From a virus, in IMG/VR virus record IMGVR_UViG_3300045738_002037, positions 62,001 to 126,000 of that record: a stretch of DNA of 64,000 nt, one strand, 5' to 3'. How positions within the stretch are numbered: the stretch's first letter is position 1; each line of letters opens with the position of its first letter. Below the pieces are notes generated by a model. It had not been told where the DNA came from and did no database searches. It was given only the letters and a program-made list of their open reading frames with translations. Shown here in pieces: positions 31,719-58,526 of the stretch. A program made the translations under genes and the position numbers.

Positions 31719-31758
31719 GATGCACCTTAATTAATGCCAAATAACAAAATTGCATAAT

Positions 31759-32184: not shown

Positions 32185-32273
32185 ATTATATCTCGAAAAT
32201 TGATTTTAATAACTTTATATTATTTTTATAACAGTAGTTGAAGGCGATTTAGCCAACAAATAAAACGGCAACA

Positions 32274-32954: not shown

Positions 32955-32984
32955 TTTATGAAAGCCTCAATAAACACAGCTTCA

Positions 32985-33668: not shown

Positions 33669-33837
33669 TTTTCTTTTCCTTTTTATTGCTTAAACCCATC
33701 TTTTTAATGTATTCGTCCCTTTGTTTAGGGTCCACCAAAAAAGATAAGCGTTCATCATCTCCTTCATCACCAACAATGCTGTTGGGATAATTAGCTATTA
33801 CTTTCCAATGACCTTCCAAAATACGATTTAATTTCAT
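33649..33837 (-). CDS. small charged protein
   Basis: A 62-residue protein with a Lys-rich C-terminus (SNKKEKKNAKQKD). It starts at a TAATG junction with the upstream gene and overlaps the next gene by 20 bases, which supports its being translated. No family recognised. Confidence 0.5.
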   Translation of the reverse strand: MKLNRILEGHWKVIANYPNSIVGDEGDDERLSFLVDPKQRDEYIKKMGLSNKKEKKNAKQKD

Positions 33838-43200: not shown

Positions 43201-46200
43201 GACCATCAATATAGTCTTCTGAAATTCCCTGTATCCGTGAATGCCCATAATTATCAATAACACAGAAATCACTTGGCATCCATTTAATAGATTTAGGATC
43301 TAAATCATGGCCAGTCAGAAATCCATCTGAACCATCAACATCGTGCTGAAATGCAGCTTCAAGTGCTAAAAGCGGTTCATAATCAAACACTGTGCCGTCA
43401 ATGTCGCCGGAATACGCTCCCGGCGGAAGGTTATCTTCAAGAGATCTAACCAATAAACCTTTGGTGTTAGTGTTATCCTTGCCAGGTCCAGAGCCTTCTT
43501 CTATCTTTTTAACTGCTTTTTGCGGGCCAGCGCCATCATAAACAATAACCCCGCCCTCAGCAGTATCATCGGCAAGATAAGCTCGGAATTTTAAATCGTA
43601 TGGAAATATGCCGTCTTGCGTCGACGTTGATTCTTCTTTAAAGCTAATTTTTAATTCTGGGGACCATGGGCTATTTCCCATAGTGTTATAAACTATACTA
43701 GCTAAATCGCTAATATATTCATTGTCTGGATCATCAGCAAGATTAAACGGCGAAGTACCGTCAAAATGCTGATGTAACGACGGAGGCACGCCGTTAACGC
43801 TACCCCATTCCGTATCCGTCCGACTGGGTTGCCGTTTCCTTGCATCAGGGTTAGTATAATGGTCTTTGCCCCATCCCATACTATGGAACGATTTTGAATT
43901 ATAAAAACCTGGAGTAAGCAGAGCCTGGTTTCCTGCCGCTTGATCGATCCAAAATAAATTAAAATAATGTAAATTATTCGAATATTTTGATGCCAATTCT
44001 TTTATCAACGAAGTAACATTAACTTTCACACGTTTTAGGGCATACAGATGGCTCCCCTCGTATTCTTCTCCATCATAGCCATGATGATCTTCATCACTTT
44101 TTCCAATAACAAATTCAGTAGTACGTTCTCTTTTAGAAATTAATTTGCTGTCATCGCCGGGTTCAACTATAATTCTAAGCCTGGGCGCAAAATCTTCACC
44201 TTTAAGCGAGTGTCGAGAGCCTACAATTGTCCTAAACGCAGCATCTCCATTTAATGTTTCTTCATCTGGCACCCACATATATGACAGAATGGATTTGCCA
44301 TCGTCAAGTATTTCTTGAGTGACTTCAGTGACATCGCATTCAAAATTTCGAAATGCTCTTTCAGACCCTGTAAAATTAAAAGTCTTGTAAGCAGTTGTTC
44401 TATTTCTACTGAGAACCGAAACCTCATCGCTCAACGAAGATTCATAAGTGTCAACAAACGGATACGCTTTCACATTAGACCCACTACTCAATTCGCCATA
44501 TAATTTGCCATATACATTTTGGTCGCCGCCCTCTATGAATGTTTCATGGTCAGGATCGTAGTCATCTGCGCCATTTAATATTAAAACAGCACTTTTAATC
44601 TTTTTGCCGACCAAATCATCAGAGATTTCTGAACCATGAAACATAAAACCAACTGCTCGCGTTACTAACTGGCCAGAGAAAGCCGTTGGAATTGGGATCC
44701 CGGAAGCACTAGCGCCTCCATGGGAAGTTACATCAGGATATTTTCCAAATCGCAGTTGCCCATTATCGCCTGGAAAATCCCCAACTTCAATCAACCCATT
44801 GCCAACGCCGTCCATGCGCTGCTCGGCGTCCTGTTTACCAGTGGCTGACTGGTCCAATATTGGATCGACAAAACGAACTTTAAACTCATAGAGATAAGCG
44901 TTCTCTTCCGACCATTCATCAGGTTCATTTGAATCTTCTGCGTACCATTTGCCGTCAAAATCAACCTGCCCAGCATTATTAAGATGAGTATCAATTGAAC
45001 CTTGCGTACTATTTTCGGCCAATCGATCAGGCGGCATATACATTATTAATTCTGCAGATTCAATCTCCCTACCGCCGATATCAAATTCGCTATGGAATCT
45101 AAGACCGACATGTCTGTGTCCACCCATTACACGGGCAACTGAGCCTGATAGCTGTGGGTCCCTAGCCAAAGCATGTTCGTCGTAACCTTTATTGCCATGC
45201 CCAAATTCTATTGCATCGTTTCTTACAGTAACGATTCCTCGCTGCTGGAAGCCCATGGCAATGGGGATATCGTGCTCGTTCGCTTGCCAATAATTTTGTG
45301 TATAGTAAATAATTTCTTCGGCTGCGTCCTCGGCACGATTCACTTTACATCTAGAGATTGTGTTATTATAACCCTTGCCGGGCAGATGCTCAAAACCATG
45401 ATCGTCAAATGACGCATCTTTAGGAAGCAACACTTCAATATCAGCAACAATTTCTGCCGCGTTAGGATAATACGTATTAACTGTTCGCCAAATTCTATCG
45501 CCATGGTTTATGATCGCAGAATAACGACGGCCCGAAAGTATGTCGGTCGGATCATATTTGCCTAAAATTTCTGGCCATTCCGATGTACCATTGCCGACAT
45601 TTCCATATGGCGAATTAGCGGTGGCAATACAAAACGGCGATATGGTATTTGTTTGTTCCTGAGTGCGAGCAAGCAAAGAAGTTTTTAAGGTATTCGCGTC
45701 TGGAAATAAAAAATTTCTCGTCGAATGTAAAATAACTGAAACTGTTTGCCCCGCAGCAACAGGAACACCCTTGGGATATAAAGTATTGATTAGATCTAAT
45801 GAAACCCATTGGCCATCGCCGGTCACATTCACGTCGATATGGAAAGAAGCTAAACTCGCCCCAGCCGCAGATAGATCATCGCCGTCGATTATCTCCACAG
45901 ACATTGTGCCCGACAGCGATTGCTCGCACGTGGGATCCCATCCAGCGGACCTCGACGTCCCACGCTGCCATAACGAACCTACGTCGGACGCGTGATCAGT
46001 AGAAATACGTATTGCGTCTGCAAAAACCGGAACTCTCATCTCCGTTTCAGGAAAGACCACCAATCCTTCATGCTGGTACATTATTACTTCAATTGACTGA
46101 CCTTCTTCTACAGTAAGGATACCGTCCGGATTTGGGGTAGAAGCTAAAATTTCCCATGTAGCACTTGTTATCAAAACAAGACCAGGTGGTGGCACACTCC

Positions 46201-49200
46201 ACGGATTGGCGGTTTCATTTAGAGCGGGGTCGTACTCGGATACGGTCTTACCAGATGGCGCTCGAGCTTTAAATGAATTGGGACTGACACTTTGATCGAC
46301 GTATGCATCATAACGACTGCCCACCGGAACATCGTCAGCACTTAGCAATTGATAAGTGAATTTCACGTTGTCATGGCCAGGGACGCTGCCAAGCTGGTTT
46401 CCGTAGCCGCTGCCGCCTCCAGGCATCACAATCGACGGCCATGTGGCAGATATTTGATAATCACCAGCTGGCAGATCACGAAATTTCCAAGTCGCTGTTA
46501 ATAGGTCTGGCCCATGTATCGATGGCATATCCTCTGAAGAAAAAGCAATCTCATAGGACCCACCCCAGACTGAGTTTGGATTGCCGCCTTTTCTCCAATC
46601 GACGTCGTCATGCATAATATAGCTCTGATAGCCCCCGCCGTGGGGCATCCTGAGAAATTCTGTCTTCTTTCCTGCGATCCGGGAAGTATAATTCTCGTCG
46701 TAATTGTCAATTATATATGTGTTAACTGTAGGAAGGCGACGCGGGTCAGGGCTTTTTCCATACAAATAAACTTCAAACTTTGAAAAATATCCACTATTGT
46801 CAAATCTTATTGTCTGACCTATTCTATCCGCGAACCGGCCCGGTAGTGTCGGTTGTGCTACGGAGCTAAAAATAGGAGAATCATTTTGAAGATATGGAGG
46901 ATATATTGTCGCTAATGTAGTGTCAGTGTTAAGTTCACTATTCCAAATAATTTGCGGGCTGGACATAGCCCCATAAGGATGCGTTTGTTCCTCAATAAGC
47001 TGCTTTTGATCTATCACAGAAGTTGAAATATTATCTAATAAGGTTAATTCAAGCGGTATGTGCTCACATAATAACAATGTGCCGTTCGAATTAAATGAAC
47101 TATAAACCGACGTCTTGTGGGTATTATATTGTTTAAACGCTAATTTAGCTTTTGGTATATCGTTATCATCATGAACTCTTACTCCAGTCCCAGAATTCTT
47201 GCTGATTCTTTTAACTGGAACTTTAGTAACAGGGTCTAAACCGGATTCTAAAAAATCACCTGAATATTTGACATCCGGCAGATCCATACTAGGAATCGTA
47301 CCAACATAGTCATATACTGCGCTTTTTAATTGTTTTGGAACAGTCCACTTAGAAGCAGGGCCACCACTAGGAGGGTCATCTGAATCTCCAGACAACTGAC
47401 CGATAAATAGATCACCGCTTGGCCCAAGTGGAATTGGCAACAATGTTTCAGAATCATACGTTCTTGACGTTCCACTATATGACGGATAAGTCACAAGCAC
47501 GTCAGACGTCGCTGACAAAGTTTGACCATTTTGATCACGTCTATATCCAACTTCAAATCGTTTTACATATCCTGTTCCATTTACTATATCATTTTTAATG
47601 CGGTCATCATCCGTATCGCCACTAGAATAAGTTTTAGACGATGTATTAAACGACGATCTGGACGAATTCATTCCGACATTATCTAAAATGGTTCTATAAT
47701 CATTAGACTTCATCGCCGTAGAACTGATTAAATCTAAATCACTTTTAACAACCCAATTTGCCGCATCATCATAAGATGTTACAAACGATGCGCCAGTTAT
47801 ATTAAATGGTCCAGACCCATTGCCGTCATCCCAAATATGAGCATCAAAACTTACATCTGCGTCATATCCGCCACTAGAATCCGGTACAGGAGAACCGGGG
47901 CGCGGAACAAGATAATCATTTGAAATTAATTCATTGTCTTCTAAATAAACCGCCACTCCATCTTTAGCGCCAGCCCCATCTTTCTTATACACAAAAAATA
48001 GCCCAGTAAAATTCGTGTATGGCGGTTGTCCTTGTGTGGAACCAGTAAGAGCAGTCGGCGGTTCATTTTTAGCCCATGGTCTGGTGTTTCGACCAGGGAC
48101 AACAATATTGCCTAACACAGAAACCTTGGGGCCTTCCGTGCCAGCGCCAATCACTTGGAATACTTGTTGCTGAGGATTATAAATGATGGAATTAGTACAT
48201 ATAGCACTATTTTCTTTACCAACATAACCATTGGCAATATTAAAAGGATCTCTTTTATTAAAATGGGCAAATACACATTTTTTAATTTGAACTTTGTTTA
48301 CACCAGAACCCATCGATAAACCAGCAGATTGACCTTGCGCGCCCTCTAAACCTTCCGCAATTATAGAATTTTGAATTGTTACATAGCTAACTTGCCCTTC
48401 TATATTGGCACTATAGTCCTTTGGTTCTATATCAACTATTTCATCAACACCCCACGACAACGAACAATGATCAATCAAAATATTTTTAAGAACATTGCCC
48501 CAAGGCTTATTGTGCCTATACTTAATTTGCAAAGCATCAGAAGATTCACCATTGGTCTTAGTTGACCGATGCCAGCCGGATCTTATAGCAATATGTCTTA
48601 ATAAAACATGGGGCGCTTCAATTGCTATAGACGCGCCGATTACAGTTATTCCAGGTTCAGGTGCAGTCTCGCCAGCAACAACGCAATTTGGTTCCGTAAC
48701 GACCATGTTTAACATACGCTTATAAACGTTAGGCTGAGGATTAATCCTAGTGCTTTTTCTAAGATCAATAATACCGCCTACTTCAAACACAATAATTCTT
48801 TCACCAGGAGTCGATAAGGCATGGTGAAGAGTTATGTCGCCTTCTACATAATCCGGATCAGTATCATCTGCCGCTAGAGAATTAACTTTTATGACTTTAA
48901 CACTATCAGAATCTGAATTATCTGGCGAAAATTCACCGCTAATAACTAGTTCTGCGTCTGAAAAGCGGATTTCATTATCACTAATATTGCCGCCACTGTA
49001 TCCAAATAATAATATATGATGGTCTATTGTGTCCGGCGCACTACCGCTAAATATTACTTTCCCAGGAGCAATAGCAGTCATCAATACGTTAAAAAATTCA
49101 AATTCACTAGGCCCAACTGGCGATAAACCATCCACACCGCCAGCGTGCTCAATGCTTCCTTCTTTAAGATTGCCCGCTTGACCAAAGCCGTCATACGGAC

Positions 49201-50059
49201 TTACATGCCCAATGGTGCCTTTATCTTCTGTTAAATCCTTATTATAAGTGATATTTAAATAGGCAGCGAATATCCCAGATGAATAAGCAGGATTTTGGTC
49301 TTCTCGTAAATCTTGAACAAACGCGCGAATATAATATTCTTCGCCCACGTTTATATTAGATATAGGATTACCACTTGCGTCAGTAGCGGCAATCCTAATC
49401 TGCACTAATTCATGGCCAGACAACGGCGACACCACATTGCCAACAATAGGTACAATGTCTGGCATTGACATTGAAGACGGCACTTCAGGAACAGCGACTG
49501 CTTCAACAACACCAGGGACCAATGGCTGATCCTCTGGAACAAGCTGCACCAACCTCTTTACATTATTATAATATTCTGTGCCAATAATAGAAACTAAATT
49601 GCCGGATAACACAGTCCCAAATGTACCGCCACTACTGTGATCCCATGCAAACAATTCCCCGCCGGGAGTTATATAATAATATTGCCTACCTATATTTCGA
49701 CTATCATAGAACGGCGCTCCAGTAGAATTATATTCTACGAACCAATTGCCGGTTATCCATTTTTCATTTTCGCCACCAAAATTAAGATAATGATTAGCAC
49801 TACCACTTAAAGCAAATTCGAATACAGAAGCATCAAAATCACCCAACACTAATACAGAATTCGCTTGCTTTCCTTGCGGCGAATCAGCTGGAAAAGCTTC
49901 GATCTCTTTTTGCGTAACACTGATTAATTCGACAAACGTGGACTGGCCTATTTCATCATTAAAACCAACATTGTCCCACACAGAATTGTCGGAACTTGGT
50001 TGCGCATTATTGCCGCTCTGACCAACGGCTTTCCGCACTGCATCAAATCCATCAGACAT
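34202..50059 (-). CDS. giant mosaic adhesin/fibre-like protein with pectate-lyase and YWTD modules
   Basis: About 5,285 residues. In order: a unique N-terminus (1-200); a cohesin-like beta module with SGIFAAYLNITYNK (about 210-375); a pectate-lyase-type beta-helix with NILIDHCSLSWGVDE (395-900); beta modules including a golvesin/CBM-like part (1120-1250) and DNRLRE-like parts ending in APRLRI; a Thr8 linker (2910); YWTD-type propeller repeats (2925-3095 and 3555-3730, KMYWT, HMYWTEY); a Rossmann-like module (3430-3545); a second pectate-lyase-type helix (3945-4425, DHCSLSWGLQ); Thr linkers near 4485 and 5105; a second Rossmann-like module (4925-5020); and a unique C-terminus. I use the ATG at 50059; a TTG at 50077 is the alternative. 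No signal peptide, so it is probably a virion fibre or depolymerase. Confidence 0.85.
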   Translation of the reverse strand: MSDGFDAVRKAVGQSGNNAQPSSDNSVWDNVGFNDEIGQSTFVELISVTQKEIEAFPADSPQGKQANSVLVLGDFDASVFEFALSGSANHYLNFGGENEKWITGNWFVEYNSTGAPFYDSRNIGRQYYYITPGGELFAWDHSSGGTFGTVLSGNLVSIIGTEYYNNVKRLVQLVPEDQPLVPGVVEAVAVPEVPSSMSMPDIVPIVGNVVSPLSGHELVQIRIAATDASGNPISNINVGEEYYIRAFVQDLREDQNPAYSSGIFAAYLNITYNKDLTEDKGTIGHVSPYDGFGQAGNLKEGSIEHAGGVDGLSPVGPSEFEFFNVLMTAIAPGKVIFSGSAPDTIDHHILLFGYSGGNISDNEIRFSDAELVISGEFSPDNSDSDSVKVIKVNSLAADDTDPDYVEGDITLHHALSTPGERIIVFEVGGIIDLRKSTRINPQPNVYKRMLNMVVTEPNCVVAGETAPEPGITVIGASIAIEAPHVLLRHIAIRSGWHRSTKTNGESSDALQIKYRHNKPWGNVLKNILIDHCSLSWGVDEIVDIEPKDYSANIEGQVSYVTIQNSIIAEGLEGAQGQSAGLSMGSGVNKVQIKKCVFAHFNKRDPFNIANGYVGKENSAICTNSIIYNPQQQVFQVIGAGTEGPKVSVLGNIVVPGRNTRPWAKNEPPTALTGSTQGQPPYTNFTGLFFVYKKDGAGAKDGVAVYLEDNELISNDYLVPRPGSPVPDSSGGYDADVSFDAHIWDDGNGSGPFNITGASFVTSYDDAANWVVKSDLDLISSTAMKSNDYRTILDNVGMNSSRSSFNTSSKTYSSGDTDDDRIKNDIVNGTGYVKRFEVGYRRDQNGQTLSATSDVLVTYPSYSGTSRTYDSETLLPIPLGPSGDLFIGQLSGDSDDPPSGGPASKWTVPKQLKSAVYDYVGTIPSMDLPDVKYSGDFLESGLDPVTKVPVKRISKNSGTGVRVHDDNDIPKAKLAFKQYNTHKTSVYSSFNSNGTLLLCEHIPLELTLLDNISTSVIDQKQLIEEQTHPYGAMSSPQIIWNSELNTDTTLATIYPPYLQNDSPIFSSVAQPTLPGRFADRIGQTIRFDNSGYFSKFEVYLYGKSPDPRRLPTVNTYIIDNYDENYTSRIAGKKTEFLRMPHGGGYQSYIMHDDVDWRKGGNPNSVWGGSYEIAFSSEDMPSIHGPDLLTATWKFRDLPAGDYQISATWPSIVMPGGGSGYGNQLGSVPGHDNVKFTYQLLSADDVPVGSRYDAYVDQSVSPNSFKARAPSGKTVSEYDPALNETANPWSVPPPGLVLITSATWEILASTPNPDGILTVEEGQSIEVIMYQHEGLVVFPETEMRVPVFADAIRISTDHASDVGSLWQRGTSRSAGWDPTCEQSLSGTMSVEIIDGDDLSAAGASLASFHIDVNVTGDGQWVSLDLINTLYPKGVPVAAGQTVSVILHSTRNFLFPDANTLKTSLLARTQEQTNTISPFCIATANSPYGNVGNGTSEWPEILGKYDPTDILSGRRYSAIINHGDRIWRTVNTYYPNAAEIVADIEVLLPKDASFDDHGFEHLPGKGYNNTISRCKVNRAEDAAEEIIYYTQNYWQANEHDIPIAMGFQQRGIVTVRNDAIEFGHGNKGYDEHALARDPQLSGSVARVMGGHRHVGLRFHSEFDIGGREIESAELIMYMPPDRLAENSTQGSIDTHLNNAGQVDFDGKWYAEDSNEPDEWSEENAYLYEFKVRFVDPILDQSATGKQDAEQRMDGVGNGLIEVGDFPGDNGQLRFGKYPDVTSHGGASASGIPIPTAFSGQLVTRAVGFMFHGSEISDDLVGKKIKSAVLILNGADDYDPDHETFIEGGDQNVYGKLYGELSSGSNVKAYPFVDTYESSLSDEVSVLSRNRTTAYKTFNFTGSERAFRNFECDVTEVTQEILDDGKSILSYMWVPDEETLNGDAAFRTIVGSRHSLKGEDFAPRLRIIVEPGDDSKLISKRERTTEFVIGKSDEDHHGYDGEEYEGSHLYALKRVKVNVTSLIKELASKYSNNLHYFNLFWIDQAAGNQALLTPGFYNSKSFHSMGWGKDHYTNPDARKRQPSRTDTEWGSVNGVPPSLHQHFDGTSPFNLADDPDNEYISDLASIVYNTMGNSPWSPELKISFKEESTSTQDGIFPYDLKFRAYLADDTAEGGVIVYDGAGPQKAVKKIEEGSGPGKDNTNTKGLLVRSLEDNLPPGAYSGDIDGTVFDYEPLLALEAAFQHDVDGSDGFLTGHDLDPKSIKWMPSDFCVIDNYGHSRIQGISEDYIDGQNLTVGIDANDRRILKVIKLDTDGETPVKKRKRFPFYILNCASSVPVHKTVVLDNGESVERSYMAVIGTPYGSCDTVGGLRCDAAGGSTGSNDTWTDNVTNRPVTAHGAYNGDLWLYIINLNSILESTTSDYGEEVIAAFNLSGVNEREIYESYYNHPAFATSFITGIGGQDTGLWPTELFASVSDPGTIHVRQDIVTVDGTNYFVGPDEESLQFSQDGRHVLVKYAGVDVQGKSRDIWRMFDVGDFAYKATNPSWSRPFADDSRKPSVDRKPNVLVGQNEIQRFTVSWSNTSNASFRIFKRYKNHPDRTAIIPASVFRSAGGLTGNDRQNNYSSSKFEKYMERQFNNYSPAGLNYHRSTTDGNRVWAENPDACVVRFVSNVKARGKPETYRRSVGSKIVERGWPGRPDVYTVVFDVEWSGTKGNTPPAGTNQIIHYLAAYDRLRTVFGSRPARYMEPTGRVEIIQEGTYCNPHIWLNRAESKAFGYNCEPGQPRRTLIPLVAAVVAGVTVVDNLVGPIYRPGTSGNAVADYKDYGIRPHNFSYLDTGLLDGRGTDQGGHLLTDRGATRGVIPLNQISALSFAYGQKFLDITTAAPDQFLAIASDSWADVTIADSYDCTGLVRTTTTTTTTAVPDITVQKLYYVSNSDNNGLPNTIRRWPPERLELGKNKWLDAPNDEILVSDQDGATDIAIDNINQKMYWTIATSVQNSSIPNPAGAVPSVGKIMRADLDGTNVEDITPPGGRSINPHGIALDVVRGKMYWLEDHVDDSAARGEVRRANLDGSGEQLLTTTDPPLQSSKSLTLEEVPNYFTSKSAPTDNIISDIKTYNLGSSIESIVYSGALRLITGSRGSAKLTFPASVDLTNILVENVQSGPKALFSTGTQLSPLGYTYTATKTTFFPFKPEPNYHFAAVESLFYGIQDSTGSQLVGKQSWMPVNKVSEVVVMLDRQWLVQDIYRPPRSPVIGQYNTRLRYHIYKGYCSDAALAIAKRQMTAAAFRTYKRDCQNRCIRNGQYYYPSQSPCSFNNNHALDKYIADSGYFGFDIDNQKFLRNLHPVCERRPHDAPAYDSIGVVDRVPYPPYTSADTASGETRKHDVYEGTILRYFGAPVARDPVKDGPGVFDYSYGDPGYEAYRKSHSFAPNMTGSQTKVFSWPIPASIDLLFIDPWGNTPLSSDHISGLKDWLALGHKRLVILGGHHSDFANHKTGSAYHDLVQQLDVGITVKNVHVGASSNWRAKRSSGHPLVDGGASRLEHLGLYRPSRLALDLENGHMYWTEYATADADGPYPGRLRRANLSGSSKVILRDGLTGIDNVRGIDLDVKNQHIYLSTVETIPPRTNDNRYPEHGTAKILKLDFDGSDVSTVGSRLPRGVLFNYHYSLGPQSPNDIILDLDNQYVYVANHMAYERTADIAKGDHIQRFGFGGDGSVILSLQVCPPATATGVALAKVVMPAFDVQLQDADLLRHIAGGVIPLYDSKDDIYPNGRIGRIVVLNCTKSSEFEDRVSYEINPRKGFWSCPDNWAALSNPTSVKFESQQYEAKIYDITGLQNPIRLRSGGRRDFSTLHAAYAFVAYGPDREYNADNTINITGGLYRDEIVAYNVEDPNVGMVRLTHTRTNAWTKGVPGSGGKPAVVLPEPEGNISTEFSDVSDVNVLKVTTLSPTGPGSLYEALTTQGPRIIVFEVGGVIDFRNADELQGESAGRDVILPINIDIPNCVVAGETAPDPGITIIGTALLVRASNVLIRNIYIRHGDHDKASTGIEATGQGVALGVIAHGPDPTIENILIDHCSLSWGLQACAKIQPSTVAGSTCRYITFQNCIISEGLSSPTGAPGLLMSAADAETGSNHILVKRCLYAHIGVAGPFDNTSARAQGQMANSAICVNSIIYNPQFHAASVSGAGLSGPQLAMLGNIVVPGLFTKAYRKNRLSNLEGGNEYSHDGTDFTGLLYVRSQSAETIAIYLNDNELIKNAHLTGDGGFDYDVSIDARRSDPPWNGISGTPVTSFVNSYAATGLNDWLNKDTDLDLITSAVLKVDNYSILLNDVGANTSRSSFNGVAYSGGDSIDDRIKNELLNLTGGILLGLEQGSETKAGWEDAVGGYPTYDLVSRIYDPSTLDPVPIGPNGNHIVGKDGYDPSTDSFADPFYAKPNLIVSSDGTKLVYNSTWTGEGGTHVNAPYGPYVPGYHLLIDLVEAQLVGPVDGTTTTTTTMPPDSNSRNGIGVLETPVAEFSGQGDYLPFVCEVVNVILKPHADFFRDSPTETCSPAGSCLINPIVTTGSAADHNNDERMTVPGLVWSGLSGYNTLSNGTVVNNGIGPFYPNIIDPDDGKFVQSWGQIFAERELIIGFNGVDMNPGDNSGPHVDVNWNEVIAINKATLTLKFDNIQQQQFDLLPSDGIGTEITLYKDIHNYSPYGEPCAIDQFEISKVYPSPCRNPNHSFFAAEHFRRTISRSSDINPRQLPSTWAEDRDVRVTHDNKIDVCPEVFDGSCDRLNGLFVGIRRLSWSRASVGGANNIIAAVETIPLSDGGDILGEVVLIADTTFLMYESFSRGGQTGLSGLANNRENQQFMVNLYPECNPTVGASASVVNVVGYKSFAENDRNYPINMLRVFGSRNLFPAAQGLYVKGGHVGPISGTDSNGRDLAFAKLVMIDPLTVLSPDDVQNIKNWMLLGEGRRVVVVYEYEVADTSRARAILEALGTKMRPDPQDRVTNAGTWQARPISGHPIIDGIDPYDANDLAGRSIRLCDKISTVFYGGIVPIDFNNGNARPLLLGGIVCPNYPDCEDNPEAQDSAPRYNGTKLLSMSLELELEICDEIVPHTTTTSSTTTEEPDISTNASDGGVILGNISGSGFGSSCLPEALQTEICLDFVPPPPYDYPEKYVPDPKDFEEVIVEPCALVLTANKSVRLELERDLFDPNRTYEGSLATVKLLTRAKGYDVNKYAPYLRVGNRLRATSYDTVVATGMSIILVDKSMDVSRREGLILDRITSREILPDRMRWPDQT

Positions 50060-50112
50060 AAATATACCGTCTTTCAATAGTTTAAAATATAATGCTACTA
50101 ATAGATTTGAAT

Positions 50113-50572: not shown

Positions 50573-51403
50573 ATGCTTACATTAAAAATTTCCGACTCAA
50601 TAACTATCGGCAATAATGAATTAGCAATAATAACCGGGCCGTGTGTCATCGAATCTAGAGACATGGTGCTGACAATAGCTGAAAAAATAAAAGAAATCAG
50701 CGAAGAATTGTCTATTCCAATAATATTTAAAGCATCATTTGACAAGGCCAATAGAAGCTCTATAAAATCCTATAGAGGGCCAGGAATAGATGATGGACTA
50801 AAAATATTAGACGAAGTTAAAAGCCAATTCGGTCTATCTGTAACAACTGATATCCACGAGCCATCGCAAGCTGCTAAAACAGCAGAAGTATGTGATATTT
50901 TACAAATACCAGCCTTTTTATGCAGACAAACAGACCTGTTAGCAGCTGCCGCTAGCACTGGCAAAACAATAAATGTTAAAAAAGGTCAATTTATGGCACC
51001 ATGGGATATGAGCAACGTTATTAACAAATTATTAGAATGTAACAATCCTAAAATTATGCTTACAGAAAGAGGCACGACATTCGGATACGGTAGACTAGTA
51101 AATGATATGCGGTCAATACCGTTAATGCGCAAATTTGGATACCCAGTAGTGTTTGACGCAACACATAGCGTACAGCTTCCAGGTACTGGCGGCGATAAAA
51201 CTGAAGGCGAAAGGCATATGGTTCCGACACTTGCTAAAGCAGCTATCGCATGTGGAATTGATGCTTTGTTTCTTGAAACCCACCCAGACCCAGATAATGC
51301 TAAAAGCGATGGACCAAACATGATCGAATTGCACAAACTACGCAATTTACTCACCGATTGCCTAAAAATACATAAAGTAATCAGGGAATGCCGCGAAAGA
51401 TAA
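50573..51403 (+). CDS. kdsA: 3-deoxy-D-manno-octulosonate-8-phosphate synthase, metal-dependent type
   Basis: A 276-residue KdsA that condenses phosphoenolpyruvate with arabinose-5-phosphate to Kdo-8-phosphate, the precursor of the inner LPS core sugar. The TIM barrel is complete: ITGPCVIES (Cys24), FKASFDKANRSS, YRGPG, TDIHEP, IPAFLCRQTDLL, NVKKGQFMAPWD, DATHSVQ (His198), ETHPDPDNAKSDGPNM (Glu235, Asp246). The Cys/His/Glu/Asp set marks the metal-dependent class; the E. coli enzyme has Asn at the Cys position. AGGA lies seven bases before the ATG. This is a monocistronic island in opposite orientation to its neighbours, likely a host-derived gene. Confidence 0.95.
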   Translation: MLTLKISDSITIGNNELAIITGPCVIESRDMVLTIAEKIKEISEELSIPIIFKASFDKANRSSIKSYRGPGIDDGLKILDEVKSQFGLSVTTDIHEPSQAAKTAEVCDILQIPAFLCRQTDLLAAAASTGKTINVKKGQFMAPWDMSNVINKLLECNNPKIMLTERGTTFGYGRLVNDMRSIPLMRKFGYPVVFDATHSVQLPGTGGDKTEGERHMVPTLAKAAIACGIDALFLETHPDPDNAKSDGPNMIELHKLRNLLTDCLKIHKVIRECRER

Positions 51404-51433: not shown

Positions 51434-51940
51434 TCAGAATAACAATTTCTTTATTTCCGCCATTCTACTATCCATCCACGCTAATGGATTAGAATATTTA
51501 ACTAGACCAACATTGCTAAGATCAGCAATGTTTATAGATTTAGACCAATCTTCATCATCCATCAACATTGATGCTTCATCACTTTTTATAGAATAATAAA
51601 CAACTCTTGAAATATGATTCGCAGCAATATTTAACATGCATGACGAGCATGGCCTACCAGTAACGTATATCGTGGACCTGCTCAGATCACCATAAGAATG
51701 CCTAATCGCATTGGCTTCGGCATGAACAATATATTTATATTTTGCGGGCCGCGACCAATCTATTTTATCATCTGGTATTTGTTCAGGCGGGCCATTATAA
51801 CCCCACCCTCTGGGCCTATTGTCTCTGTCTATTATAATAGAGCCACATTGTGTATGCGGGTCTTTGCTTTTAGATGCTACCCAAAAAGCAAGCCCCATAT
51901 AAAATGAATCCCTGTCGGGAACCAACCTAAATTCAACCAT
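51434..51940 (-). CDS. dCMP deaminase
   Basis: A 168-residue zinc deaminase converting dCMP to dUMP to feed dTMP synthesis. The active site is HAEANAI (His73, catalytic Glu75) with PCSSCM (Cys98, Cys101), all zinc ligands in standard spacing. The N-terminal MGLAFWVASKSKDPHTQCG is family-typical. It is slightly shorter than T4 Cd (193). It ends the minus-strand nucleotide-metabolism run that includes the PurZ-like, DeoC-like and deoxyribosyltransferase-like genes. A related function such as riboflavin-type or general deoxycytidylate deaminase is less likely. Confidence 0.85.
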   Translation of the reverse strand: MVEFRLVPDRDSFYMGLAFWVASKSKDPHTQCGSIIIDRDNRPRGWGYNGPPEQIPDDKIDWSRPAKYKYIVHAEANAIRHSYGDLSRSTIYVTGRPCSSCMLNIAANHISRVVYYSIKSDEASMLMDDEDWSKSINIADLSNVGLVKYSNPLAWMDSRMAEIKKLLF

Positions 51941-51943
51941 TGC

Positions 51944-52372
51944 TTATTTATCTGCCCACTTTTTAACCATGCGCAATATACGGCCTTGTTCTTTTTTTGC
52001 CGCTGTAGATGAATCGAACAAATAAGATTCCGGCATCCATTCCTCTTCATTGCTAATATAAAAGAATTCACCTGTGTCTTCGCTCCTAGCAACATCGCAA
52101 ATCTCGAACTGTTCTACTTCAAGCTTGGAAGTTAAAAACATAACTATTGCTTGAAAATCTATGTGATTTAATTTAGGCAAATGTGCCCTTGAATTCCATA
52201 CATTTTTAGCTATTCTTCTGTCATAGAAAACTTTAGGATGATGCTCAAGCATCCACTCATCGCCAACAGGCACCATCACATTAGTAGCACCAACCGGTCT
52301 TAATGTTACCCACCAAACCGATTCGCCTACTTTATATCTTGATAATTCTAGTACTGATCTTATCGGGGGCAT
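51944..52372 (-). CDS. unknown protein
   Basis: A 142-residue protein with a beta-rich N-terminal half containing several Trp (ESVWWVTLRP, DEWMLEHHPK) and a basic helical C-terminus (KEQGRILRMVKKWADK). AAGGA lies close to the ATG. Not recognised. It lies between a small gene and dCMP deaminase. Confidence 0.6.
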   Translation of the reverse strand: MPPIRSVLELSRYKVGESVWWVTLRPVGATNVMVPVGDEWMLEHHPKVFYDRRIAKNVWNSRAHLPKLNHIDFQAIVMFLTSKLEVEQFEICDVARSEDTGEFFYISNEEEWMPESYLFDSSTAAKKEQGRILRMVKKWADK

Positions 52373-52649: not shown

Positions 52650-53435
52650 TCATTCTGCTATTTTTAAAAATTGTTCATAACTTTCTTTAAAAATATCCTG
52701 TTTATTCAGTCCATCAGAAATTCTTTTTCCAAGACCAAACTCCATAAAGTACCAACCATTATAGCCAATTCCTTTAGAATCATCAATGGTTTGTTTTATC
52801 ATAGAGTCGCCAACGCCAACAACTTTAAACCCATATCCTATTTTATAGTCCCTAACATCAATCGCTGCGACGAATTTTCTAATATTTTTCCAATATTTAT
52901 CAAAGGGATTTATGTTTCTTTTAGTAATTAATTGCACTGGGTCATATAATAGCCGCCAGTGCCTATTATTGCCCAACAATTCTAATATAATTGGAATATC
53001 ATGGCTATATGGAAAATCATCGGTTATTTCAAACAATGGAATAATACCAGCTTTAGCGCATTCGGAGGCAATCAACGCCATCCAATCATTTATAATGTCT
53101 TTATTTCTACTGGCGTTTTTTATTCCACCGAATATTCTAACATAATTAGCTTTGAAATATCTTGTAATAGATAAAGTTCTATCAATTGTTTCTGAAGATA
53201 TATTTCCTAAATCATTACAATCAATAAGACCGAGGTTAGACGCAACCATCGGGACAGATAAGGAATACTTATCAATTATTCCTTTAAGCTTTTGACACGT
53301 AGAATCGCTAAGATCGCAAATATTGCCGGTCCAAACTTGGCGAATTACAACATGTTTAATATCACATTCCTGCAAAGTTTGACATGCTACATCTGGGGTA
53401 TCGCCTGCGTCATTTAAATAGGCTGCTATTTTCAT
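52650..53435 (-). CDS. sugar phosphate isomerase/epimerase-like TIM barrel (AP_endonuc_2 family)
   Basis: A 261-residue protein with the xylose-isomerase-like barrel pattern: MKIAAYLND first strand, VRIFGGI, IPLFEITDDF (metal-binding Glu), LLYDPVQL (Asp), AAIDVRDYK and YFMEFGLG (last Glu). The conserved Glu/Asp/His set is consistent with a metal-dependent isomerase or epimerase of sugars; the substrate is unknown. Its start overlaps the stop of the PurZ-like gene as ATGA, so the two are translationally coupled, although it could equally serve the Kdo/glycan side. Confidence 0.7.
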   Translation of the reverse strand: MKIAAYLNDAGDTPDVACQTLQECDIKHVVIRQVWTGNICDLSDSTCQKLKGIIDKYSLSVPMVASNLGLIDCNDLGNISSETIDRTLSITRYFKANYVRIFGGIKNASRNKDIINDWMALIASECAKAGIIPLFEITDDFPYSHDIPIILELLGNNRHWRLLYDPVQLITKRNINPFDKYWKNIRKFVAAIDVRDYKIGYGFKVVGVGDSMIKQTIDDSKGIGYNGWYFMEFGLGKRISDGLNKQDIFKESYEQFLKIAE

Positions 53436-54547
53436 AAATACGCCACATGGTCAATTTGTGGCCCAGTGCCCACAATAGTCACTGGCAACAACACCAAATC
53501 TTCGATCATTTCGATGAATTCTTGAACTTTTGCCGGTAATTTTCCGTAATCGTTGGTCCCATAACATGACCAATCAATATAATTAGCAAAATTTAACGCG
53601 ATCTTTGTCGCACCATTTACTACAACAGCTTCTTGTAATTGAATTTTAGAAAGCGAAAACACTCGGCGTAACCTTTTGGTCACTGTGGTAAGTTCACCTT
53701 TCATTACTTCTGGAGGCGCGCCTGCGGTTTCAGCAACTTCGGCCCATGTGATCTCTTGATGGTCATCATAACAATCACCCGAATACCCAACAGTTTCTCC
53801 ATTTTCCACCACATTGCCGACCCTAATGGGATATGGCCTAATTACTAAATATACGTCTCCAACTTTATAAGGCGAAACGCCCATATCGGCTAAATTGTAA
53901 ACAGCAGTTGTGCCTCTGCTAGTACAATGGGGATAGTGGGATCCGTGATTTATATCTAACGAAAACCCCTGCGCGCCTTCATGCAATATCGTGTTGCCAT
54001 CATTCATTAGCTTATTTAAATGTGTTGGCATGTAATAATCTTTAACGTTTGGAACATATGGCAATAATTCTTTATAGTCTCTAGCAAGCTTCAGTCCCGG
54101 TTTTCTCATTGCTTTATCTGCTAAAAAGGCACCACAGCCTTGCATCGTGCTAGCAACACTTTTCGTTCCAGTTTTTAAATTCTCCTCTGCTTCTTTATGC
54201 TCATGCGTGATCACACCGGCTCTGGGGTGTATCACAGTATTTTCAGCCACATCGCATTCATCTATTTCTTTTAGCATCTGGTCAATGGTGAACGCGGCTG
54301 AAGGCCCAACTAGTATAGATGGGCTATATTCTCCATCGGTCCATTTTTTTAAAATGGCAGCGGAGGGCAGCGCTTTAGCCACAAACGCATCGCCGTTGAT
54401 ATTGATCGCCGTATGGCCAGCATTGGCCATGTTCGTGGTAGAAAGGACTTCTGGTTTATACCGGTCAGCCAACGCAGAAGTAATTAAGCCCTTCCCACAG
54501 CTTCCCCATTGCCCATCTGTTATAATATTAAATTTCCCTGCTTGCAT
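53432..54547 (-). CDS. purZ: adenylosuccinate synthetase homologue with PurZ-type active site
   Basis: A 371-residue PurA-superfamily ligase. The P-loop reads QWGSCGKGL: the catalytic Asp of PurA (GDEGKGK) is Ser16 here. This Asp-to-Ser change is the hallmark of phage PurZ (N6-succino-2-amino-dAMP synthase), which uses dGMP to begin 2-aminoadenine (Z) synthesis. The other sites remain: NAGHT (His45), STMQGCG, HEGAQG with DINHGSHYPHCTS (189-209), and TTVTKRLRR (287-295). The TKLD guanine-recognition motif is replaced near 318-325 (LNFANYID). Length matches short archaeal/PurZ forms, not the 430-residue bacterial PurA. GGAG lies eight bases before the ATG. PurZ versus an unusual PurA is not settled by sequence alone. 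Confidence 0.75.
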   Translation of the reverse strand: MQAGKFNIITDGQWGSCGKGLITSALADRYKPEVLSTTNMANAGHTAININGDAFVAKALPSAAILKKWTDGEYSPSILVGPSAAFTIDQMLKEIDECDVAENTVIHPRAGVITHEHKEAEENLKTGTKSVASTMQGCGAFLADKAMRKPGLKLARDYKELLPYVPNVKDYYMPTHLNKLMNDGNTILHEGAQGFSLDINHGSHYPHCTSRGTTAVYNLADMGVSPYKVGDVYLVIRPYPIRVGNVVENGETVGYSGDCYDDHQEITWAEVAETAGAPPEVMKGELTTVTKRLRRVFSLSKIQLQEAVVVNGATKIALNFANYIDWSCYGTNDYGKLPAKVQEFIEMIEDLVLLPVTIVGTGPQIDHVAYL

Positions 54548-54608: not shown

Positions 54609-54977
54609 TTATCTAAGAGAAGAAGAAACTTGGACATCATATCCATCGTCTTCCCAATTTTTATGTTGCGCTTCTTTATTTAATTTGCCAACTGAAGACG
54701 TAGATTTGTCCAATTGACTAATAGCGTCGGGCAAAGGCATAACTTTGACCACTGCGTCAATTACATCATCTTCTTCCATTTCAATAATAGCCACAAGATT
54801 TTTCTCTTGTAACTTAATTTTATATTTTTGGGCTATTAATATAGCACCTAATTCATCAGCTAATTTAGACATTTGTACTGAGATATAGCGACGTTGCGAA
54901 TCAAGCCATTCATCAGATCTGGTTAAAAGATCGGCATCTTCGCCTATTTCATGAATCATGCTTAATATGTTCATCAA
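54609..54977 (-). CDS. unknown helical protein upstream of the PurZ-like gene
   Basis: A 122-residue protein, helical (DEWLDSQRRYISVQMSKLADELGAILIAQKYKIKL), with an acidic middle and Ser/Asp-rich end. It overlaps the upstream zinc-ribbon gene by 29 bases. It does not show the HD motifs of DatZ or the MazG-type acidic motifs of MazZ, so it is not an obvious Z-pathway partner. Family unknown. Confidence 0.6.
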   Translation of the reverse strand: MMNILSMIHEIGEDADLLTRSDEWLDSQRRYISVQMSKLADELGAILIAQKYKIKLQEKNLVAIIEMEEDDVIDAVVKVMPLPDAISQLDKSTSSVGKLNKEAQHKNWEDDGYDVQVSSSLR

Positions 54978-55275
54978 TTTTTACCCAAGTGTCAGGAACC
55001 CAAGTCATCATCCCATGAAGTTCAATTCTAACTAGTTTGTGCTTCCTATCACGAACTATCGCAATTTCATCATGCCAAGGATGTTCTTTATTATTTATTT
55101 TTACAATTGTGCCCTCTTCTATTTCTGGAATTTCTACTTTTAAATGTTTTGAACCACCTATTTCCACATGTTCAATAATTATATTTACTAATTCTCCACA
55201 AATTTTGCATCTATTGGCATCATCTTTATTTATTATGTTACTTGTTCCACATTTCTGGCAAGTTATAGTATTCAA
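54949..55275 (-). CDS. zinc-ribbon plus SH3-like small protein
   Basis: A 108-residue protein: CQKCGTS and CKICGEL at the N-terminus form a four-cysteine ribbon of the kind seen in DUF-zinc-ribbon proteins, followed by a beta-rich part (GTIVKINNKEHPWHDEIAIVR, quoted in pieces) that looks SH3/KOW-like. The start overlaps the DeoC-like stop by 4 bases. Likely binds protein or nucleic acid; target unknown. Confidence 0.6.
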   Translation of the reverse strand: MNTITCQKCGTSNIINKDDANRCKICGELVNIIIEHVEIGGSKHLKVEIPEIEEGTIVKINNKEHPWHDEIAIVRDRKHKLVRIELHGMMTWVPDTWVKIDEHIKHDS

Positions 55276-55961
55276 CTTAAAATCTCTTTTAATTGATCAG
55301 GCTGTCTTTGCACTTCTTTAATTATGTTTTTAATCTGAGCTAAACTAACAGCATATTTATAAGCATCTTTACATAACATTATAGATTTTACATCTTTTAT
55401 ATTACCACTAACTTTTATCGGCACACTTATAATTTCTTTTATTTTGCTAATCATCTCATTGTGTATATCTGGATTAGCTTTACTAACTTGCAATTTTAAT
55501 TGATGATTTGTTCGTAAACAACTTGGAGACGGCACAAATTTCATTGCTTCGCAGATATCTGTAATATTTTCATCAGAATGGTGCATGCCAAGAACAAATC
55601 TTATCTCAACAGTTGGCGAAATATGGTTTCTAACAAAATCAGTTAAAACAGACATTTCGTTTTGACAATCCGCTTGAGACCTGCCCCCGGATAATAAAAA
55701 CTCAAATCCATCACAACTTAAAGAATCTATGGTCAATCCTCGTAATTTAGTATCACCATAGCATTCCCCTTTAGGCCAGTCAACCGGAGTCAATATTTTA
55801 AATTTACCCTGCCATTTGATCCTTTGCAACAAAGCATCAGCAGATATTTCTGGGTGAACAATTATAGACGGAATCGCATATTTCACGGCTAACTCTGCAA
55901 CATCCGCTAATTCATTAGACTGCATAACATCTATTTCAATATTATTGAACAAAGCATTCAT
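55272..55961 (-). CDS. DeoC-like deoxyribose-phosphate aldolase family TIM barrel
   Basis: A 229-residue barrel resembling deoxyribose-5-phosphate aldolase. PVDWPKGECYGDTKLRGL matches the strand-2 V-(F/D)-(P/W)-P-x-G pattern. GFEFLLSGG, IRFVLGMHHSDENI and HQLKLQVSK (candidate second Lys) follow, and VPIKVSGNIK near residue 185 corresponds to the conserved KxSGGI lysine region. DERA splits deoxyribose-5-phosphate to acetaldehyde and glyceraldehyde-3-phosphate, joining nucleotide salvage to glycolysis. The assignment is moderate because several consensus residues differ. It lies in the same run as the deoxyribosyltransferase-like gene, which would provide its substrate. Confidence 0.55.
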   Translation of the reverse strand: MNALFNNIEIDVMQSNELADVAELAVKYAIPSIIVHPEISADALLQRIKWQGKFKILTPVDWPKGECYGDTKLRGLTIDSLSCDGFEFLLSGGRSQADCQNEMSVLTDFVRNHISPTVEIRFVLGMHHSDENITDICEAMKFVPSPSCLRTNHQLKLQVSKANPDIHNEMISKIKEIISVPIKVSGNIKDVKSIMLCKDAYKYAVSLAQIKNIIKEVQRQPDQLKEILS

Positions 55962-55975
55962 GTTACACCTTTATA

Positions 55976-56371
55976 TCACTTAGAAGATAATTCTATAACT
56001 TTTTTGATAGCTTCGGAACTATCACAAGTTTTAAATACTATAGGATTATTTTCATCAGTCAAATAATGAAATGATGTGGGTACATAGTCCTCTTCTTCCA
56101 TTAAAATAACTATTGGTATATTTTTAGCATATGCATAGCCAAATTCAAAGTGTGATCCTTTTCTTGCTGGCGTAACCATTAAGATACAGTCAGAATCATC
56201 CACCCCCCTAACCTCTGCCAAAGCGATATTCATCAATTCACTTTCGTCATCACAAAAACCGTGGAGCGTCCAATCATAAGTTATAGTAACGCCATGTTCT
56301 ATTAACTGATCTCTCAGTTGGCGAACTCTATCTTTATTATTAAGGCTAGACGCTATATAAACGTTTTTCAT
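55976..56371 (-). CDS. nucleoside 2-deoxyribosyltransferase-like protein
   Basis: A 131-residue protein of the nucleoside 2-deoxyribosyltransferase/DNPH1 superfamily. YIASSLNNKDRVRQLRDQL is the first strand and helix, AEVRGVDDSDCILMVTP carries the Asp pair, and GSHFEFGYA contains the nucleophile Glu of the family (GxxxELGYA). Members move 2-deoxyribose between bases or hydrolyse deoxynucleoside monophosphates. In a possible Z-genome phage such an enzyme could remove dAMP or salvage bases; that link is inference. It lies just upstream of the DeoC-like gene. Confidence 0.65.
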   Translation of the reverse strand: MKNVYIASSLNNKDRVRQLRDQLIEHGVTITYDWTLHGFCDDESELMNIALAEVRGVDDSDCILMVTPARKGSHFEFGYAYAKNIPIVILMEEEDYVPTSFHYLTDENNPIVFKTCDSSEAIKKVIELSSK

Positions 56372-56643: not shown

Positions 56644-57624
56644 TCATTTTTGAACACGATCTATTATCATTGAAATAGCATCTTTATGGCCAACTTTATT
56701 AAATTGACCCACAAAATCCCAATTGTTATAGTCAGAACAGAATGTAAATTTGTTTTTTTCCTCGTCAGTTAAAATTGTTGCGGCATAATCATAATATTCC
56801 GCTTCATTTTTGAATCTTATTTTTCTAATGTCTGGATTCACATCTGGGTTTGTCCCATAAAAATGCAGCCGACCATTTAAACCATCTGGGTCCATATCAC
56901 ACCCAAATATATAAGTGTGCTGATATCCGATCCACATAGCAATTTGCATGCTCGCAAAAACCGTGGATCTGCCAATATGAAATCCTTGTGTTAAGTCTCT
57001 ACTAAAACCCTTGCCGGGTATATTCTTTATCTGAAACGAATTTGATTTATTATGCCTTATCGCAGTGCTGTTTATTATTATGCCATCATATTCTTTCCAA
57101 AGATCTTCATGTCGAGCATATTGTGATGAATCACAAAATGTCCAATAAGTAGTCGGCCATAAACGAGGATCTGGTTTATTTATAGACATAATGTCAATAT
57201 GTTCAACGCCAACTAATTTCTCTAGAGAAACTTCCGTAATAGACGGCCCATTGCCAATAACAACTAATATCCTATTAATGCCGATACCACGAATTTCTAC
57301 TATCTTATTTCGAGATTTTTGCGTTATTTCCGGATCATCAACGTAGTTTACTCTAACTTTCTTCTTAACCTTCTGTGGATGTTTTACAACAACATATTGC
57401 GCGGCTAAATCTTTAGCAGGATTCTCAGAAATAACAGGTGCAGACGGCAATTGTTGAATTTCTCTCACGCCTATTTTATTCAAATTCTGCCGGTTTATTT
57501 CATCTAATTTTACAACTTTTGCTTTTGATGGTTGAATAATTACTTTAGCAGTACTCGGTACTCGAATAGCCTTTGGAAAATTAACAATTTTATGTTGGCG
57601 TATTATTGGATGCTTTTCTGGCAT
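56644..57624 (-). CDS. DUF115/MptE-like or sialyltransferase-like protein
   Basis: A 326-residue protein. Residues 1-105 are a variable Pro/Lys/Ile-rich tail; residues about 108-320 form a Rossmann-like domain beginning ILVVIGNGPSITEVSLEKL (in parts: VVIGNGPSI), the signature of DUF115/MptE-type enzymes and GT42-type sialyltransferases. Later marks are YWTFCDSSQYARH, FHIGRSTVFASMQIA and YIFGCDMDPDGLNG. These families act on nucleotide-linked sugars or pterins. Here a glycosyltransferase role, for example with nonulosonic acids, is the most likely, with the substrate unknown. Confidence 0.6.
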   Translation of the reverse strand: MPEKHPIIRQHKIVNFPKAIRVPSTAKVIIQPSKAKVVKLDEINRQNLNKIGVREIQQLPSAPVISENPAKDLAAQYVVVKHPQKVKKKVRVNYVDDPEITQKSRNKIVEIRGIGINRILVVIGNGPSITEVSLEKLVGVEHIDIMSINKPDPRLWPTTYWTFCDSSQYARHEDLWKEYDGIIINSTAIRHNKSNSFQIKNIPGKGFSRDLTQGFHIGRSTVFASMQIAMWIGYQHTYIFGCDMDPDGLNGRLHFYGTNPDVNPDIRKIRFKNEAEYYDYAATILTDEEKNKFTFCSDYNNWDFVGQFNKVGHKDAISMIIDRVQK

Positions 57625-57666
57625 AATATAACTTTAACTTTACAATAGCAAGAATGTATTTTTATC

Positions 57667-57716
57667 TTCGATTAGATAAGGTAAGAAATTTATCTTACTC
57701 TTACTTACAAATCGAA
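57667..57716. other. imperfect hairpin in the intergenic region
   Basis: In a 146-base gap (57625-57770), TTCGATT (57667-57673) pairs with AATCGAA (57710-57716), and inside it GTAAGA (57681-57686) pairs with TCTTAC (57693-57698). The element lies between the gp55-like gene and the DUF115-like gene, both minus strand. It may be a transcript-end or 5'-leader structure. A run of nine G (57744-57752) lies nearby on the plus strand. I see nothing else in this gap. Confidence 0.35.
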
Positions 57717-57770
57717 AATACTAAAGCCAAGGGCAGAAAATAAGGGGGGGGGATTGACAAAGAAATCTTT

Positions 57771-58526
57771 TTATGTTCTAATAGTTTTCTTGCCGCCGAG
57801 TACCCTAAGGCTTCTCATTGATTTAGGCAATATACCAGATTGTAAATCAGAAGCCAATTTAAAAATATTTTGCTTCTGTTTATTACGTTTGTTCATAATC
57901 GAGTACATGCACCTATGGATAGTGGTAGTCAATAAATTGAATACCGGTGCCCGACCTGGAGTATAAACCAATTTTCTAGCTATGAGTTTGTTAACAACCT
58001 GCAATAAAGCATCTTCGGCTAAATCTATCTGTTCCTCTTCTGACGGAAGGTTAAATTTAGTAGAAATACCGCGACATATTTTACTGACATCCTCTAACAT
58101 AGCGTGCCAAGTCTTTTCACTAGGCAATTCTTTAATATATCCATTGCTTTCAAGATCAGGAATTATCTTGTCTTGTTGTATAAAAAGATCGCTCAAATCA
58201 TATACTTTAGTGTTAGACTTTAAATCTAATGATTTTCGTATTTTTCCCAGTGACCACTTAACTTTTTTGCCGCCGACAGTGGCACTTAATGTAGCGGCCA
58301 CTTTCCCATTGTAACTGTTGAAATAAAAAGGATTTGGCAAAGCTATACAATGTACTCGAACAGGATGTAACGGGTCGAGATATTTCGGATTATCGTCTAC
58401 TCTACCAATCACTTTGGTCCACAATAATCCACGTTCCCGAAAATCTTCAAGTTCTAGAACAGAAGTAGAAATCAACCAAAGGAACCAATTCCGTTCGAGA
58501 ACTTTACTATCGCAATATTGAGGCAT
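57771..58526 (-). CDS. late sigma factor, T4 gp55-like candidate
   Basis: A 251-residue protein. The C-terminal part (about 165-240) has a sigma-70 region 2-like pattern: EEEQIDLAEDALLQVVNKL, then GRAPVFNLLTTTIHRCMYSIMNKRNKQKQN, quoted here in shorter pieces such as FNLLTTTIHRC, which matches the core-binding and -10-recognition helices of gp55-type sigmas. The N-terminal 150 residues are unlike T4 gp55. AAGGA lies six bases before the ATG. gp55 directs host RNA polymerase to TATAAATA late promoters. It is divergent from a zinc-finger/HTH protein. Confidence 0.55.
   Translation of the reverse strand: MPQYCDSKVLERNWFLWLISTSVLELEDFRERGLLWTKVIGRVDDNPKYLDPLHPVRVHCIALPNPFYFNSYNGKVAATLSATVGGKKVKWSLGKIRKSLDLKSNTKVYDLSDLFIQQDKIIPDLESNGYIKELPSEKTWHAMLEDVSKICRGISTKFNLPSEEEQIDLAEDALLQVVNKLIARKLVYTPGRAPVFNLLTTTIHRCMYSIMNKRNKQKQNIFKLASDLQSGILPKSMRSLRVLGGKKTIRT

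Follow-up and report, generated by a model that had tools for sequence, protein, structure and literature searches.

A PurZ-type synthetase of a T4-like myovirus, from a branch sister to known PurZ, with candidate partners other than DatZ and MazZ

Introduction

Known Z-DNA, in which 2-aminoadenine (Z) replaces adenine, relies for its replication on DpoZ or, in the case of S-2L, on a PrimPol acting together with DatZ. The phages described with such DNA are sipho- and podoviruses, the only two groups that a 2021 paper names as Z-phages (PMC8599892). Among the PurZ papers that we found, a set that takes in few subscription articles, there is no report of purZ in myoviruses or jumbo phages. According to one account, the PrimPol of S-2L is non-selective and replacement is nonetheless full, though with DatZ present (PMC8065100); the PurZ of this phage itself uses dATP and thereby drains the dATP pool (PMC8342488). 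Phages that carry PurZ0 clear dAMP with DmtZ, an enzyme of the NDT family (PMC12884076).

Here we describe a purZ-type gene in a 64,000-nucleotide stretch of viral DNA (hereafter the window), which corresponds to bases 62001-126000 of IMGVR_UViG_3300045738_002037, a record of 156,696 bp in full.

A purZ-type gene of the adenylosuccinate synthetase superfamily

The gene lies at window positions 53432-54547 on the minus strand, where an ATG-initiated reading frame runs from 54547 to 53432 with no internal stop; the plus strand is full of stops in the same region. Its product is a 371-residue homologue of succino-amino-deoxyadenylate synthetase. A first-pass annotation had proposed a PurZ enzyme of a possible Z-genome phage on the basis of several motifs, all of which are present: a GSCGKG P-loop (GQWGSCGKG) in which Ser16 stands in place of the Asp of PurA, His45 (NAGH), the EGAQG loop (HEGAQGF), TKRLRR, and the length of 371 residues. 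The protein also has the segments TTVTK (287-291) and NFANY (319-323). Pfam Adenylsucc_synt (E 8e-40) and PHROG 1211, “2-aminooxy adenylosuccinate synthetase” (E 5e-63), both match the protein, which on its sequence is a true member of the adenylosuccinate synthetase superfamily.

Among PDB entries, the short archaeal PurA scores 159 bits against the protein, followed by the PurZ of phiVC8 (6FM1; 144 bits, E 5e-41), the PurZ of S-2L (139 bits) and E. coli PurA (74 bits). The NCBIfam PurZ model NF038379 yields 220 bits, which is below its cut-off of 300 and slightly less than the 228 bits obtained with an archaeal PurA model; the characterized PurZ and PurZ0 proteins that were tested score 320-422 bits with NF038379, all above the cut-off. 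Because the clade to which the window protein belongs falls below this cut-off, we class it as a sister clade of PurZ and not as a member of NF038379.

Relatives are found in the viral collection, where the window protein alone recovers 12 and an alignment query recovers 44 loci. Queried with the family alignment, prokaryote genomes returned only three matches, each an ordinary, distant PurA, and thus no cellular or prophage copy of purZ was found.

Phylogenetic placement

A quick tree and a careful tree agree on the placement of the environmental PurZ-type proteins. In the careful tree, from which the long MaF61 branch was left out, these proteins form a clade (support 96/96) that is sister to the PurZ of S-2L, phiVC8, SH-Ab 15497 and Bm1 (97/89), with PurZ0 branching further out and PurA standing apart (100/99). 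Constraining the environmental clade to group with PurA is rejected (p-AU 0.022), although some branches are long and the rejection is therefore moderate rather than overwhelming. The trees include one archaeal PurA, which was pieced together from a PDB alignment and is missing ~19 residues, and no archaeal PurZ of the Ser/Gly type. Thus, the check suggested in the first-pass annotation, a phylogeny with PurA, PurZ and PurZ0, groups the window protein with PurZ and not with PurA, and the PurZ reading is backed both by this placement and by pocket residues beyond the Ser. An identity as PurA was rejected on the strength of the tree, the AU test and these residues. The enzyme appears to come from a branch of the PurZ family for which we found no published description.

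Two observations among the relatives are placed here under signs of selection on purZ. In L168, the order of the surrounding genes is kept and purZ is divergent: its product shares 33% identity with the window protein, contains the motifs GSSGKG, TSVTK and NFMNF, and is nearest to a protein of Bacillus phage vB_BpsS-140. Judged from the sequences, this is an exchange in place of one Ser-type purZ for another. The second observation is that purZ carries LAGLIDADG-bearing insertions in four relatives (L058 4869-8507, at both sites and on the same record as L013; L057 6852-9083; L061 8001-10256; L063 6579-9002). The insertions occur at two active-site positions, between NAGH and T and between YPx and CTSR, and by their domains are putative inteins, elements that are as a rule retained at conserved sites within genes important to their carrier.

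A Ser-type (GSSGKG) PurZ homologue is also carried by a cultured phage, Flavobacterium phage MaF61 (L073 7983-9326), which is 167.8 kb long and has a gp23-type capsid. This homologue sits on a very long branch and is annotated as a putative adenosuccinate synthetase.

Substrate-pocket residues

In all 36 rows of the clade in the alignment, those of the window protein and of 35 environmental relatives, the position of the catalytic Asp is occupied by Ser, and the substitution is therefore neither a lone change nor a sequencing error in the window gene. Every relative with a readable P-loop retains this Ser, which is likewise present in 5/5 PurZ and 5/5 PurZ0 sequences; the residue is Asp in 6/6 PurA sequences.

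In S-2L PurZ, residues S23, T273 and Q308 are unique to PurZ and touch the substrate (PMC8342488). Their equivalents in the window protein, Ser16, Thr287 and Asn322, are PurZ-type at all three positions, at which PurA has Asp, Gly and Asp; Asn is also found at the Q308 position in phiVC8. The window protein accordingly shows both the TTVT loop tip (Thr287-Thr290) and the Asn322 donor pocket that mark PurZ. Residues N305 and F306, which hold the donor adenine in S-2L PurZ (PMC8342488), correspond to N319 and F320, and are kept here, while PurZ0 and PurA differ at these positions. Since the NFANY donor pocket is as in PurZ, ATP or dATP is predicted to be the donor. One departure is Ala132, at a position that is Gly in S-2L, phiVC8, SH-Ab, Wayne and PurA.

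The phage and its replication genes

The first-pass annotation had assigned the gene to a jumbo-type phage that uses Pol III alpha. The size label was not borne out and is not applied to this record, whose length is 157 kb and whose structural genes are T4-like; only its relatives reach 408 kb. Specifically, the record encodes a T4-like gp23 capsid protein, a gp20 portal, a prohead protease, gp25, gp53 and a gp15-type tail protein, and therefore has the capsid, portal and T4-type baseplate genes by which a T4-like myovirus was recognized. Strong gp23 matches were obtained in nine further purZ-bearing records, which belong to the T4-like part of the clade and extend to 408 kb.

The polymerase assignment was correct. 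DNA polymerase III alpha is split over two genes, with a C-terminal part at 23313-25964 (minus strand) and an N-terminal PHP part outside the window at record bases 143805-145274. Beside it, the record encodes a short, ~400-residue family-A-like polymerase (395 aa; 13727-14914, minus strand), which matches PF00476 with E 1e-5 in the record scan and E 3e-8 as a protein, and gave no PDB match. Neither a full-size family-A polymerase nor a recognizable DpoZ was found in the 156,696-base record. Other replication genes of the record encode RecA, a DnaB-like helicase, a Toprim protein and a B12-dependent ribonucleotide reductase.

Several further features of the genome were recorded. A giant ORF of ~5,290 aa (34202-50077, minus strand) has a higher G+C content than its surroundings, and at its place relatives carry proteins of 1,300-1,940 aa with partial similarity to it; the product is possibly a tail fibre or adhesin. 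A complete gene for KdsA (KDO-8-phosphate synthase), scoring above the curated cut-off, adjoins the purZ block on the plus strand (50573-51403), and a distant copy occupies a similar place in L004. Together with sugar-nucleotide and glycosyltransferase genes elsewhere, KdsA suggests a Gram-negative host and the making of surface sugars. A family of short proteins with differing C-termini and a shared N-terminal motif like 'IDPKQIAKMITEDPDEINPLD' is repeated through the genome, with members at window 31000-33700 and at 125300-134000 and 154600-155100 of record G000.

DatZ, MazZ and dUTPase

The absence of DatZ and MazZ from the window had been pointed out in the first-pass annotation, and extending the search to the rest of the 156,696-base record likewise revealed neither gene. 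There is no match in this record to datZ (YfbR-like HD), to the MazG/MazZ families PF03819, PF04447 and PF18909, or to DUF550 and DUF5664, although the absence of PF04447 is weakly shown because that search matched no record or control. No PF00692 match indicative of dUTPase or DutZ occurs in the record either, whereas such genes are present in many relatives. Because the records are linear contigs of uncertain completeness, these absences are provisional. With no MazZ equivalent found, no source of dGMP was identified in the record.

YfbR-like (DatZ-type) genes that exceed the family cut-off are present in 7/47 purZ records, all in the other subclade of these enzymes, and are weak homologues of known DatZ. 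Six of the seven carriers measure 257-427 kb, and in these phages ~10 kb separates the HD gene from a full-size PolA; the seventh is a 48-kb contig in which the HD gene lies ~3 kb from purZ. The large records of this second PurZ subclade (L044, L046, L050, L054, L060 and L062; 257-427 kb) are without gp23, and in each the HD gene and PolA are both far from purZ.

A conserved block around purZ

While the PurZ reading of the first-pass annotation stood, that annotation had missed the conserved block around the gene, in which genes for NDT/DNPH1-fold and DERA-fold proteins are found instead of those for DatZ and MazZ. The genes of this operon-like block are all on the minus strand and overlap or nearly touch. 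The start of the following gene and the stop of purZ share 4 bases, and the same gene follows purZ in relatives; it encodes a 261-aa TIM-barrel protein that resembles xylose isomerase and AP endonuclease 2 (52650-53435; PF01261 at 26.3 bits, below the cut-off of 31.1). The downstream part of the block continues with a conserved protein of 142 aa (51944-52372) and a dCMP-deaminase-like protein of 168 aa (51434-51940; PHROG 174 with E 4e-31, and Pfam), whose gene is also found near purZ in three relatives (L038, L039 and L061). Upstream of purZ are genes for two small proteins, of 121 aa (54609-54974) and, with a zinc-ribbon-like character, 108 aa (54949-55275), then those for the DERA-fold and NDT-fold proteins, and finally two further conserved genes (326 and 251 aa; 56644-58526) that are not nucleotide-related as far as seen.

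The NDT/DNPH1-fold protein (131 aa; 55976-56371) is a candidate dNMP N-glycosidase or deoxyribosyl(phosphate) transferase. PF05014 matches it with 38.1 bits (cut-off 28.8), and Foldseek matches its predicted model (pLDDT 87.4) to NDT, to DNPH1/Rcl and to the nucleotide N-glycosidases MilB and BcmB; no good match was found among cultured phages. Residues Tyr5, Glu53 and Glu76 are invariant in an alignment of 11 homologues. Tyr5 and Glu76 correspond to the active-site Tyr and nucleophile Glu of DmtZ, but at the third catalytic position, where DmtZ has Asn, a manual alignment places the invariant Glu53, and the protein was consequently not filed as DmtZ.

The predicted structure of the 229-aa protein encoded at 55272-55961 (pLDDT 86.6) has the fold of DERA/DeoC (2-deoxyribose-5-phosphate aldolase). 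Its best PDB matches are DERA-type aldolases (TM 0.7-0.75), and sequence similarity to DeoC was not detectable. In a manual motif alignment, Arg150, invariant among 16 homologues, takes the place expected of the Schiff-base lysine, and the protein thus seems to lack this lysine; a second lysine, Lys183, is kept in most homologues.

In the window's lineage, 16 relatives, of which some are near-identical, have an NDT-family gene at most ~2.3 kb upstream of purZ; the DERA-fold gene is upstream of purZ in 22 relatives. By analogy with DmtZ, the NDT-fold protein might remove dAMP in a Z pathway with the DERA-fold protein as its partner, a proposal that we make with reserve. The co-occurrence of NDT and purZ may reflect descent and not function. 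Against such helper roles, the NDT-fold protein is no orthologue of DmtZ, with Glu53 at the catalytic Asp/Asn position in the manual alignment, and the DERA-fold protein seems to be without the lysine that would form the Schiff base. The neighbours could instead be unrelated to Z and recover nucleosides or deoxyribose released by breakdown of the host chromosome, in a region that is common to purZ by descent, and we regard this as a serious if uncertain alternative. The whole block is syntenic in the lineage, including the genes at its upstream end without a nucleotide link; moreover, some purZ-bearing relatives are without NDT, and other phages encode similar NDT proteins without a purZ in the vicinity. 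Harder to reconcile with unrelated salvage functions is the direct adjoining of the NDT and DERA-fold genes. It is also the case that no record with a strong DatZ-like match has an NDT match, but this mutual exclusion, which we considered as evidence that one gene replaces the other, tracks the two subclades and may be descent; it was rejected as not independent.

A possible route to Z-DNA

We consider it probable that the PurZ-type enzyme lets this T4-like myovirus place 2-aminoadenine in its DNA, with dATP lowered by other means than in known PurZ phages; the second part follows from the failure to find DatZ or MazZ, which makes a different way of lowering dATP competition likely. Both the reaction and the presence of Z in virion DNA we infer from the enzyme families. 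The enzyme would combine dGMP and Asp, with ATP or dATP, to give succino-amino-deoxyadenylate, from which host PurB would produce dZMP and kinases dZTP. Insertion of Z would then fall to the Pol III-type replicase or to the short PolA-like enzyme. Both PurZ itself and the NDT-fold enzyme, which would remove dAMP and perhaps also recycle the Z base, would hold dATP down, and the DERA-fold partner might act on or bind deoxyribose 5-phosphate. Points that weigh against a PurZ-type Z-genome are the score below the NCBIfam cut-off, Ala132, and the lack of a dGMP source or recognizable DpoZ in the record.

A fuller version of this proposal, which we offer tentatively, is that a further PurZ lineage makes Z-DNA both in T4-like myoviruses (relatives to 408 kb) and, as a second branch, in large phages to 427 kb. 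The T4-like branch would do so with a Pol III-type replicase and with an independently assembled NDT/DNPH1-fold dAMP glycosidase and DERA-fold partner that replace DatZ and MazZ.

It is also conceivable, though we think it unlikely, that dZ nucleotides are made but that Z replaces A only partly or mainly unbalances host pools. Lacking both DatZ and a Z-selective polymerase, the phage would then have a genome of mixed A and Z, as might be expected from a record in which no DatZ, MazZ or DpoZ was found and whose replicase is Pol III-like. However, S-2L achieves full replacement with its non-selective PrimPol, though with DatZ, and its PurZ itself uses and drains dATP; the window's phage, for its part, keeps an NDT-fold gene beside purZ. 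Least credible by far is the reading of the enzyme as an auxiliary PurA that would raise the output of ordinary adenine nucleotides from IMP, since the better scores with the short archaeal PurA structure (159 versus 144 bits for phiVC8 PurZ) and, slightly, with a model of archaeal PurA (228 against 220 bits for the PurZ model) are set against a clade-wide Ser where PurA chemistry needs Asp, PurZ-type residues at all three diagnostic positions, and the rejected placement with PurA.

With PurZ enzymes of this kind in T4-like myoviruses and in large phages of at most 427 kb, very few of which are cultured, the range of possible Z-genomes would become much wider, and whether a Pol III-type replicase works with Z would become testable. 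The different neighbours of purZ would represent another case of convergence like that reported for PurZ0 phages, and would point to new enzymes for Z-DNA synthesis.

Comparison with known systems

The window protein is 34-36% identical to the PurZ enzymes of S-2L, phiVC8 and SH-Ab 15497, with which it shares the Ser that replaces the catalytic Asp, the TTVT loop tip, the Asn/Gln donor pocket and a PIRV loop with an SG insertion. It differs from them in belonging to a separate sister clade that scores below the NCBIfam cut-off and in having Ala132 for Gly, and its phage is T4-like, with no datZ, mazZ or DpoZ found. The PurZ0 enzymes of Arthrobacter phage Wayne, Gordonia phages and others, which occur with DutZ and DmtZ, are also Ser-type, and an NDT-family gene instead of DatZ lies near the synthetase gene in these phages as well (PMC12884076). 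Where the window protein has Asn322, PurZ0 has Asp, and its branch lies outside PurZ and the environmental clade; the NDT proteins belong to different branches, and the window's record has no dUTPase match.

The short PurA of archaea (Pyrococcus horikoshii, 5K7X and 2D7U) resembles the window protein in its short form and gives the highest PDB score (159 bits), but has Asp in the P-loop, Gly at Thr287 and Asp at Asn322, and groups with PurA. The best match from a cultured phage (37%) is the “purA” product of Bacillus phage vB_BpsS-140, which is likewise Ser-type (GSEGKG) and comes from a phage with Pol III alpha. This protein and the L168 enzyme fall together outside PurZ and the environmental clade; the Bacillus phage protein also differs in having Ala and Gly at two loop positions.

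As for the neighbouring proteins, that encoded at 55976-56371 has the same fold as DNPH1/Rcl, MilB/BcmB and bacterial nucleoside 2'-deoxyribosyltransferases (TM ~0.6-0.75) and a Tyr and Glu active site like theirs, but with a shorter loop and, by manual alignment, Glu53 for the catalytic Asp. The protein encoded at 55272-55961 differs from DeoC/DERA in showing no sequence similarity and, again by manual alignment, in having Arg150 for the Schiff-base lysine, but it is alike in fold (TM ~0.75), and nearly all of its top PDB matches belong to this family.
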